A stretch of 64,000 nucleotides of DNA from Sulfolobales archaeon (GTDB taxonomy: Archaea > Thermoproteota > Thermoprotei_A > Sulfolobales > Desulfurococcaceae): positions 124,001 to 188,000 of the forward strand of contig JANXDZ010000003.1 in NCBI GenBank assembly GCA_025059075.1, given 5' to 3'. Made by a program: the position numbers and the translations under genes. The notes under the pieces are model-generated. The model had not been told where the DNA came from and searched no databases. It saw only the letters and a program-made list of their open reading frames with translations. Of this stretch, positions 43,179 to 46,419 are shown piece by piece (within the stretch, counting starts at the first letter, position 1; each line of letters opens with the position of its first letter).

Positions 43179-43478
43179 TTATTTATCAACTGGCTCCTTA
43201 AATGATGCTGCGATGTAGATAGGTGTTCTTCTTCCACCACTGTAGAGCTTCAATAGATCTTTCTCAACAGCTGTCCTTAACAGTTTTTTAGCTAAGCTAA
43301 TCTTTATATTGTATTGTTGAGCTAATGAGTAAGGAGTTAAGTACTTAAACGCCTCTTTATCAAGATCTTTTTCTAATCTCTTTAATAATGCCTCTACCTC
43401 AATTAACGCTATTCTCTGCGTAACTTGCGCTCTCTCCTCCTTAACTTCCCCTTTTTGCTTCTTAGCTTTAGCCGACAA
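43179..43478 (-). CDS. rps25e: Small ribosomal subunit protein S25e
   Basis: 99 residues. A Lys-rich N terminus is followed by the winged-helix core with YLTPYSLAQQYNIKISLAKKLLR and LLKLYSGGRRTPIYI, the S25e signature. S25e binds the 30S head in crenarchaea and eukaryotes. ATG 43478. It is preceded by a long gap and followed by the 45-aa cysteine gene. Confidence 0.9.
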   Translation of the reverse strand: MSAKAKKQKGEVKEERAQVTQRIALIEVEALLKRLEKDLDKEAFKYLTPYSLAQQYNIKISLAKKLLRTAVEKDLLKLYSGGRRTPIYIAASFKEPVDK

Positions 43479-43584: not shown

Positions 43585-44016
43585 CTATGGTTGGCTTTGC
43601 GAAGTCTTCTTAAAGCTGAGGAAGTTCTCTAGTAAAGCAATTACTTCACTAATCTTCCTCTTTTCACAATACCTTATGCACTGCGATATAAACTCCTTCT
43701 TAAAGATGTTCTTTAAACTCTCTTTAACCTCCCCCCTAAGTATGTATTCCCCTGCTTTATTTTCGCATTCCTTAAAGCAGTGGTCTGTTTTAGGCTTAAC
43801 TACGTATATGTATGGATACCTTTGATCAACTAGCTCTATCTTTACGTGCTTTAACATATTGATTGAATCCACAGTTCTTCTTACAGCATCATATTCATGT
43901 TTTTCAAAGAGGAAGCAACCTATGTTCTTAAAAGCCTTCAGCATTCTAACGGCTGTTTCAATTATTTGACTCTCGCCGTTGGACAACCGATCCTTACTTG
44001 ACTCCACCTTCATCAC
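43585..44016 (-). CDS. Hypothetical protein of the three-gene operon, 143 aa
   Basis: 143 residues, no recognised family. Predicted alpha/beta: helical start (ESQIIETAVRMLKAF), strands KIELVDQRYPYIYVVKP, then a Cys-containing helical part (CFKECENK, QCIRYCEKRK). Four or five cysteines (about residues 79-118) may form a cluster. It overlaps the 148-aa gene upstream by 23 bases, so they are co-translated. ATG 44016. Third member of an operon of unknown function. Confidence 0.65.
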   Translation of the reverse strand: MMKVESSKDRLSNGESQIIETAVRMLKAFKNIGCFLFEKHEYDAVRRTVDSINMLKHVKIELVDQRYPYIYVVKPKTDHCFKECENKAGEYILRGEVKESLKNIFKKEFISQCIRYCEKRKISEVIALLENFLSFKKTSQSQP

Positions 44017-44440
44017 CTAGTGTAGTTGCTTTAACTGGGATGCTTACAGCTGAAGAAATGAGTCTAACTATCCAGGCATATACAGGTTTACCGAAGCTCC
44101 TCCTAAGTTCTCCATCAATGTACTTAGCTCTATAGACCATTTGCCCTGTGCCTGTGAATACACTTATGTATCCTTTGACTTTCTTTAGGAAGTTTCTAAT
44201 TAGCGATATTTGAACTACGTACTCCCTTGGATCAGTTCTTACAGCAACTTCAAATGCTTTTCCTAAAACATATGTAGGCTTCACTTCCCGCCTATTAACT
44301 ATTCTCATAGGTTCTTTAGTTAAGCTAACTATACTGCCTCCCTTAGTCACTATTAGTATAATTCTCTTGCAGACATGCTTACCACTCCTACTCCTAGACT
44401 CTTCCTCAATTAATCCTTTAACTACAGACTCCGTCTTCAA
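43994..44440 (-). CDS. Hypothetical protein of the three-gene operon, 148 aa
   Basis: 148 residues, unrecognised. Basic and beta-rich: GKHVCKRIILIVTKGGSIVSL, RDPREYVVQISLIRNFLKK, YISVFTGTGQMVYRAKYI. The single Lys/Arg-rich central part could bind nucleic acid. It is three bases downstream of the 84-aa gene and overlaps the next gene by 23 bases. The start is ATG 44440. Function unknown. Confidence 0.65.
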   Translation of the reverse strand: MKTESVVKGLIEEESRSRSGKHVCKRIILIVTKGGSIVSLTKEPMRIVNRREVKPTYVLGKAFEVAVRTDPREYVVQISLIRNFLKKVKGYISVFTGTGQMVYRAKYIDGELRRSFGKPVYAWIVRLISSAVSIPVKATTLGDEGGVK

Positions 44441-44443
44441 AGA

Positions 44444-44698
44444 CTATTCACCAATAATTAACGTAGAGCCATTGAATTTATACCTAAGTCTACCTCCCTC
44501 AGCAATATCGATAACTAAAGTAAAAGGCGTAGGAGATAGCTGGCCTCCAAGCCTTACGACATGCCCTTCTTTAATAACTACTTGCTTTACGTCATTGAAG
44601 CACTTTTCTTCAATCAATAAGCCCTGATCGTTGTATATGGATATACAAGCATCATATACTTCAGGCTTATGATATATGGCTAGGAATACTTTAGTCAA
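44444..44698 (-). CDS. Hypothetical protein of the three-gene operon, 84 aa
   Basis: 84 residues, first in the operon; unrecognised. Strands KVFLAIYHKPE, ACISIYNDQGLLIEE, KQVVIKEGHVVRLGG and a basic C terminus suggest a small beta-barrel. TTG or ATG near 44698. No known motif. All three proteins are compact and tightly coupled, as expected of subunits of one complex. Confidence 0.6.
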   Translation of the reverse strand: MTKVFLAIYHKPEVYDACISIYNDQGLLIEEKCFNDVKQVVIKEGHVVRLGGQLSPTPFTLVIDIAEGGRLRYKFNGSTLIIGE

Positions 44699-45153: not shown

Positions 45154-46044
45154 ATGGGTACTCAAACCCATAGGTATAGTAAAACAGCTTCTCTAATGAA
45201 TATAGGTGTACTGGAAGTTCTTGAAGCCATTCTAGACTCCCTCAGGATCAGTGGCTTTGCAGAGGAAGTGAAGAGAGAAGGGGATCGAGTGTTAGTTAAA
45301 GTAAGAGCTAAGGGACCCCTTGGAGTAGTTTTTGAAGACCAATACAGTTTCTCCATTAACCAGGAATCCCCTAAGAAAGTCCTAGTAGTGGGCTCTGGAA
45401 ATAAGAGCAGGATGGCTATAACGATAACTCTACCTACGGGCAGTGGCTTAGCTGATGTAATTAATGTGGATGGAGTACTTACTGGAAGTACTAATGCAGC
45501 ATCCAGTAAGCTATTGAAGTCCATGGTGGAAGGAATAGGTAATTACTTAAGGACTGAAGCTGGAATTCAGCGAACTCCTACTAAAGCTATAGAAGTACGC
45601 CAAGTTACTGAAGTAGCTGGAGCAACAGTTCGTGAAGAACTAAGAGAGTCTGTAGAAGAAGCAAGGCCTTCAGTAATACCTAGGGTAAGTGAAGAAAAGA
45701 TAGTTGAGAAAAGTAAACCTCTATCAGACATAGTATTCATGTCATCCATAATCCTAAAGTCTAAGCTAGTTGAACAAAGAATTGTTGATAAAGCTATGGG
45801 AGTTAATGAAGTTATCGCCCTAGCTTCTAAAAAAGCCTTTGAATGCAGAAACTTAGTAATAATTATTAGAGATCAAATCAAGGGAGGTGAACTAACTATG
45901 ATAACTAACCACAGCGGATTAATAGTTGCAGCTTACGCTAATATTTCAGGCAATGAATTCTACGGAATTGAAGCACTAAAAGCTTTTGAATACGCATCAA
46001 CAGGCTCTACCATAAGATTATGGTGTAGTAGTGAAGAGCTGTAG
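45154..46044 (+). CDS. Conserved hypothetical protein, 296 aa
   Basis: 296 residues, no family recognised. A first alpha/beta part (about 20-140), SIMNIGVLEVLEAILDSL-like helix then strands, is joined by a Glu/Val-rich linker (about 145-190) to a second domain (VIALASKKAFECRNLVIIIRDQ, MITNHSGLIVAAYANISGNEF) of roadblock- or profilin-like alternating strands. It is followed three bases later by a small membrane protein and then Hel308, all co-directional. Function unknown. Confidence 0.6.
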   Translation: MGTQTHRYSKTASLMNIGVLEVLEAILDSLRISGFAEEVKREGDRVLVKVRAKGPLGVVFEDQYSFSINQESPKKVLVVGSGNKSRMAITITLPTGSGLADVINVDGVLTGSTNAASSKLLKSMVEGIGNYLRTEAGIQRTPTKAIEVRQVTEVAGATVREELRESVEEARPSVIPRVSEEKIVEKSKPLSDIVFMSSIILKSKLVEQRIVDKAMGVNEVIALASKKAFECRNLVIIIRDQIKGGELTMITNHSGLIVAAYANISGNEFYGIEALKAFEYASTGSTIRLWCSSEEL

Positions 46045-46047
46045 CAA

Positions 46048-46419
46048 ATGGCTATGAAAGTAGTAGAAGAATTCAAGAAAGTTAAGAAGAGGTTTGGATT
46101 GATAAGGACAGTAGCTTTTACAGTCGGCCTTCTTCTATCACCAATAACTTGGTTCAATGATCCAATAGTGAATGTACCGATAGCTCTTGCATTAACTCAT
46201 TTACTTATAAAAGCTTGCGGCAGAGAGCTATTTATCCCAATTTTTGCAGCATCATATGTATTTACAAACGTCCTCGGCTTACTGCTAATGCAGGTAAGCA
46301 TATCATACAGTGGAGATAAGTTTAGGGCTGTAGAAATACTAAAGATCTTTATAGGAACAATAGTTTACACGCTACTAGTGATCTTTTTATTGAGGATCGG
46401 CATTTTAAACCCCCCCTAG
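46048..46419 (+). CDS. Small membrane protein, 123 aa
   Basis: 123 residues with about four membrane helices: TVAFTVGLLLSPITWF, VNVPIALALTHLL, IPIFAASYVFTNVLGLLL, IFIGTIVYTLLVIFLL. The SPITWFNDPIVN stretch resembles a conserved archaeal membrane family of unknown role. ATG 46048, three bases after the previous gene. It precedes Hel308 by 21 bases; functional link unclear. Confidence 0.7.
   Translation: MAMKVVEEFKKVKKRFGLIRTVAFTVGLLLSPITWFNDPIVNVPIALALTHLLIKACGRELFIPIFAASYVFTNVLGLLLMQVSISYSGDKFRAVEILKIFIGTIVYTLLVIFLLRIGILNPP

Follow-up and report, generated by a model that had tools for sequence, protein, structure and literature searches.

What are three small proteins of no evident family doing side by side in a hyperthermophilic archaeon? 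The window, by which we mean the whole stretch of 64,000 nucleotides analysed here, carries on one strand a run of genes encoding proteins of 84, 148 and 143 residues (hereafter P84, P148 and P143, representing families A, B and C), and a preliminary description made from the sequence alone had read them as a tight operon of crenarchaeal proteins whose strong coupling suggested a complex. Below we consider which of these genes belong together, how widely they are kept, what their predicted structures resemble and what they may bind.

The locus and its gene models

Open reading frames of 84, 148 and 143 codons were confirmed where the preliminary description had placed them, all on the minus strand (Table 1). 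Those of P84 and P148 are each preceded, at a plausible distance, by a Shine-Dalgarno sequence of archaeal type. The 3-base gap between P84 and P148 in the longest reading frames likewise stands, whereas the 23-base overlap reported between P148 and P143 belongs to only one of three possible P143 starts, namely GTG at 44016, GTG at 44007 (with GGTGAT ahead of it) and TTG at 43986, the last of which best fits the relatives. The overlap may accordingly shrink or disappear under a later start; coupling of the genes is independent of it. In a second genome of the same genus (G199, locus L208), the order of the trio and its flanks is kept, amino-acid identity is 82-85%, and dN/dS amounts to 0.14 for P84, 0.21 for P148 and 0.16 for P143, compared with 0.09 and 0.11 for the neighbouring genes encoding eS25 and Hel308. 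Because order, identity and dN/dS all hold in this relative, we regard the three as real, constrained genes. The eS25 gene adjoins the trio on its downstream side and on the same strand in both genomes. Divergent from the trio and just upstream of Hel308, plus-strand reading frames at 45154-46044 and 46048-46419 encode unknown proteins of 296 and 123 residues, both of which are also present in G199.

Table 1. Positions of the genes and sequence elements discussed in the text (window coordinates, except for the two viral genes, which are given by locus).
Feature	Position	Strand	Remarks
P84 (family A)	44444..44698	minus	84-aa ORF; TTG start at 44698, Shine-Dalgarno GAGGTG; upstream neighbour of P148
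P148 (family B)	43994..44440	minus	148-aa ORF; TTG start at 44440, Shine-Dalgarno GGTGA
P143 (family C)	43585..44016	minus	143-aa ORF; 140 or 133 aa with a later start
Shine-Dalgarno GAGGTG of P84	44707..44712	minus	8 nt before TTG 44698
Shine-Dalgarno GGTGA of P148	44448..44452	minus	7 nt before TTG 44440; within the end of P84
P148 loop codons	44375..44404	minus	E-E-S-R-S-R-S-G-K-H (residues 13-22), beta1-beta2 turn
eS25 ribosomal protein gene	43179..43478	minus	Pfam Ribosomal_S25, 6e-13; outside the trio
SBFV1 gp04	L227:2814-3227		
SBRV1 gp53	L230:21169-21660		

Distribution and gene linkage

A search with the window protein alone found P148 in 133 of 147 genomes of the order, and a profile search in 183 of 229 genomes of the class (111 of 122 among the good genomes). 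In a phylum-wide sample it was present in 69 of 71 genomes of the order, as against a single marginal match (E 0.008) among 327 others. Being nearly order-wide and almost nil elsewhere in the phylum, P148 is a signature of the order, and the same imbalance marks it as a core rather than a mobile gene; it is nearly always single-copy. The named relatives are Desulfurococcales, Desulfurococcaceae, Thermogladius, Pyrodictiaceae and Ignisphaera, and one further family of genomes (f11) appears to be Sulfolobaceae-like. This distribution resembles that of the signature proteins of Aeropyrum and Sulfolobus, 22 of which were described as specific to these two genera (Gao and Gupta, 2007; PMC1852104). 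P143 was detected in 122 of the 229 class genomes, with none in families f5 or f11, and P84 by profile in 86 of 229, a count that is probably too low, since the protein is short and divergent; f11 yielded no P84 homologue. P148 itself was not found in G002, G013 and G080, three genomes of one genus of family f3.

Rather than having different neighbours in every relative, the trio is contiguous, with one order and one orientation throughout the 22 sampled genomes of the host family (f1), the window genome included. The phyletic pattern as a whole is one of an order-wide P148 and a family-wide trio, the linkage of which partly dissolves beyond the host family. Of the 32 fetched loci where its profile detects it, P84 lies close upstream of P148 and in matching orientation in 31 (in the sole exception, L101, it is on the opposite strand), and it is the directly upstream gene in most other families. 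P143 directly follows P148 in f1-f4, and lies at an unlinked site in f6, f8 and f9. In the three genomes from which P148 is missing, P84 and P143 still lie near each other, separated by 15 bp in G002 and placed on opposite strands in G080. What survives of the operon claim is thus a tight, conserved cluster of unrecognised crenarchaeal proteins, and what does not is an obligate trio, P143 being unlinked or absent in several families. The cluster is modular, with a P84-P148 core.

Might this adjacency merely be inherited synteny, in which three unrelated small housekeeping genes of a compact genome sit together with no common function? The wandering or missing P143 of f5, f6, f8, f9 and f11 would agree with this, as would the f11 P148, which occurs without P84 or P143. 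However, the genes flanking P84-P148 differ completely between families, so that the adjacency of this pair, which outlasts such replacement across many families, is more than the synteny of a long block, and the proximity of P84 to P143 outlives even the loss of P148. We therefore consider shared descent of position an unlikely explanation, and the cluster likely to be a conserved functional unit that includes at least P84 and P148.

Several other genes were seen near the cluster or its members. In f11, P148 is followed by an unrelated protein of ~105 residues without a Pfam match and preceded by a geranylgeranyl-reductase-like oxidoreductase (loci L123-L135), and every fetched f11 locus but L123 also has a valyl-tRNA synthetase-like gene on the opposite strand. 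Neither the gene next after P148 in f11 (cluster C10) nor the corresponding gene in f8 (C43) showed homology to P143. The f3 genomes encode an AdoMet decarboxylase (SpeD) no further than about 1-2.5 kb from the trio or from the P84-P143 remnant, identified by a Pfam match in L112 (9048-9413) and by sequence likeness in L209, L210 and L211. Unlinked P143 homologues lie near the gene of a conserved His-rich protein of ~115 residues in f8 (L212, L213, L214) and f6 (L221, L222, L225, L226), with the motif KRMTLPKK..DL.KVVEEV..HHHHHH and no Pfam match (L213 searched); they also lie beside MarC in f8 and f9, and beside Top6A/B in two f6 genomes.

Protein families and predicted folds

The preliminary description recognised no family for any of the three proteins, and our searches bear this out. 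Neither as single sequences nor as family profiles did P84, P148 and P143 give a significant match in Pfam, NCBIfam, PHROGs, PADLOC or the PDB sequences, and the search of PDB structures was equally empty at significance; Rfam had no match near the trio. The structure search (Foldseek against the PDB) covered the AF2 models of P148 and P143 only, built from alignments made for this analysis. The P148 model (pLDDT 95.1) comprises nine main strands and one main helix by DSSP, and that of P143 (pLDDT 93.2) runs helix, strand, helix, two strands and then a helical hairpin. Nothing was retrieved from the PDB at E<=1e-3 for either model, and among the 50 matches listed the best TM-score by query length was at most 0.26 for P148 and 0.34 for P143. 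A missing PDB match does not by itself establish a new fold, the comparison having covered the PDB and, for P148, predicted viral structures. Any newness here lies in the families and in their unmatched predicted folds, and not in a mechanism. In the order of its elements P143 is loosely similar to MarR/winged-helix and alpha-beta-alpha-beta-beta folds, and MarR proteins are among its top weak Foldseek matches; with a best E of 0.053, TM below 0.35 and mostly large rmsd, however, there is no evidence of membership.

The second protein had been called basic, and with a pI of 10.2 and a net charge of +15, P148 is indeed so. The trait is family-wide: pI is 9.8-11.0 in 48 of 48 aligned members, with a median net charge of +14 (values within family B only). 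Residues S17, H22, Y57, G60 and G90 are invariant, and E13, G20, N83, G99 and Y107 nearly so. Several of these make up a conserved polar loop, E13-x-S15-x-S17-x-x-G20-K/L/R-H22, with residues 17-22 making the turn that joins the first two strands in the AF2 model. P84 is probably beta-rich, to judge by the pattern of its sequence, and a hairpin within it is locally similar to one in P148, scoring 28.2 where 100 column shuffles reached at most 16.7. This likeness is suggestive and would fit a P84 that arose from P148 as its partner, although such hairpins are common.

The possibility that P148 is a modelled component of the solved Sulfolobus ribosomes was considered and rejected: it had no match among PDB chains, whereas the eS25 encoded beside the trio, as a positive control, found eS25 chains of archaeal ribosomes there (9fhl and others). 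The 9fhl ribosome is presumably that of the S. solfataricus study PMC11698992.

A ladder of paired cysteines in P143

The description of the last protein as cysteine-rich holds in a restricted sense, in that the window P143 has two CX3C pairs and not the full six cysteines. The six-cysteine pattern CX3CX3C...CX3CX3C is found in P143 of other families, of which the window form is a partly eroded version. The model places an alpha/beta domain ahead of the helical hairpin, on which C80 and C84 face C113 and C117, and the two cysteine triplets fall on its opposite arms. C84 and C113 are both present in all 37 aligned P143 proteins. The remaining cysteines tend to come and go in pairs, with a co-occurrence (phi) of 0.88 for C80-C117 and 0.83 for C88-C109 as against 0.43-0.59 for the crossed combinations, figures which derive from related sequences and so do not represent independent observations. 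Nineteen of the 37 have one pair, eight have three, five the inner two and two the outer two, leaving three exceptions. This pattern of gain and loss fits nested disulfides, as far as alignment and model can indicate, with metal binding as the alternative.

Nested cysteine pairs across two antiparallel helices, as predicted for P143, also recall the small Tim (twin-CX3C) proteins, and the P143 profile matched TIM13 and TIM8 at E 0.15-0.26. The match is not significant and is limited to the cysteine hairpin; further, P143 has an additional alpha/beta domain, often retains one pair only, and is archaeal, not mitochondrial. The likeness most plausibly reflects convergent evolution of a twin-CX3C hairpin.

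A possible viral counterpart of P148

When the P148 model was compared with predicted viral structures using Foldseek, the top two matches were uncharacterised proteins of two viruses with Sulfolobales hosts. Both matches had a probability of 1.00 over nearly the whole chain and TM-scores of 0.43-0.49 by query length (up to 0.52), with E values of 1.5e-3 and 3.8e-3 that fall above the 1e-3 line. From virus and length, we assigned the proteins as SBFV1 gp04 (ORF4-137a) and SBRV1 gp53 (ORF53-163). The two are mutually related (38.5% identity over 80%), whereas their relationship to family B is unsupported by sequence (hhalign P 0.096-0.18), and no viral homologues of P148 were found by sequence. 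We treat this putative structural counterpart as a lead. Both viral proteins contain a motif, TS(K/S)(S/T)G(R/H)HGT, which resembles the loop of the translation factor aIF5A and lies at another position in the chain.

What the cluster may do

We propose that the trio would represent a housekeeping module passed on vertically within the host's order (Desulfurococcaceae and relatives, Sulfolobus-type families included). P148 would be its core and would most likely bind RNA, whether rRNA, tRNA or a ribonucleoprotein assembly intermediate, by way of its polar N-terminal hairpin loop and basic surface. P84 would be its probable small partner, and P143 an accessory adaptor, in which one to three nested disulfides may hold the helical hairpin together, and which would go with P84-P148 in some families while its gene lies apart from theirs in others. 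We infer the complex itself, its RNA ligand and the process that it serves, and hold this reading tentatively, as a first choice that may well prove wrong. Consistent with it, the neighbours of the cluster in f2 include TRAM and KH domain proteins, together with proteins that read as Pth2-like and TruD-like; P148 is basic in every aligned member and its polar loop is invariant; and P84 and P143 stay neighbours where P148 has been lost. Against it, many families either lack P143 or encode it at an unlinked site, G002 and G013 do without P148, the solved Sulfolobus ribosomes include no modelled P148, and no homologue of known function emerged by structure or sequence. Further, context outside f2 is mixed, comprising ValRS-like, oxidoreductase, HTH regulator, helicase and metabolic genes, and for this reason does not point to RNA in particular; DNA, or some other anionic ligand, fits too.

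DNA binding by P148 is accordingly a serious rival, RNA being our best guess. P148 might be an order-specific chromosomal protein, or an accessory to replication or repair, modulated by P84 and P143. Its strong basicity would suit such a role, and so would the presence of Hel308 in the window, of RFC-like and FEN1-like genes (as assigned by sequence) in f2 and f3, respectively, of a MrfA-type helicase in f6, and of the Top6A/B genes found beside unlinked f6 homologues of P143. Yet none of these neighbour links repeats across families, and invariant polar loop residues would point to a specific site more than to a general coating of DNA. On balance we think a DNA-directed role unlikely, if far from negligible.

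The same invariant polar residues, set within a small beta protein, could instead mark P148 as an enzyme or as a binder of a small molecule or peptide, with E13, S17, H22, Y57, N83 and Y107 forming the site and its basicity serving an anionic substrate. P148 matches no enzyme family or fold, and we regard this as distinctly improbable.

Returning to RNA as the favoured ligand, the candidate contact loop of P148 warrants comparison with that of aIF5A, which is encoded by a separate gene in the host genome. The P148 loop E-E-S-R-S-R-S-G-K-H and the E-A-T-K-A-K-T-G-K-H of host aIF5A conform to a common pattern, E-x-[ST]-[KR]-[SA]-[KR]-[ST]-G-K-H, which occupies a predicted hairpin turn near the N-terminus in P148 but lies deeper in the chain in aIF5A/eIF5A. 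The hhalign comparison aligned 15 columns, confined to the loop (vvE-SkSrSGKHa in P148, vvEvtkAkTGKHgsA in aIF5A; P 0.029, probability 1.7%), and full-length similarity of P148 to eIF5A was seen neither by hhalign nor as a Pfam match. Given that aIF5A of S. solfataricus is hypusinated at the loop lysine (PMC6105217), the aligned match on the P148 turn could be taken to indicate a second hypusine-type site that mimics the first. Among 86 homologues, however, this position is K in 75, L in 9 and R in 2, and it is R in G199; neither R nor L can be hypusinated. Hypusination of P148 was rejected on account of these replacements, a mimic of this kind is hardly credible, and the likeness of the loops is treated as convergence. 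A toxin-antitoxin or other mobile stress module, which two or three small, tightly packed genes might bring to mind, is scarcely conceivable given the single-copy, order-wide, vertical pattern, the lack of a PADLOC match, and the lack of P148 matches in plasmid or phage collections.

Implications

At its broadest, the interpretation favoured here would make the cluster a previously undescribed nucleic-acid complex, ribonucleoprotein or other, found across the order, in which two or more of the folds are missing from the PDB and P148 has a structural counterpart in viruses of the same hosts, a conjunction that we consider doubtful as a whole. The cysteine ladder of P143 offers a natural series of paired-cysteine gain and loss in a protein of hyperthermophiles. 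If viruses of the same hosts do carry a structural counterpart of P148, then P148 may act in a process worth hijacking. The trio is also tractable, since its proteins are small, their models confident and a genetic host is available. Above all, P148 is near-universal in an order that includes the model Sulfolobus, yet has no family, solved fold or function, and in this sense marks a gap in the core biology of the lineage.
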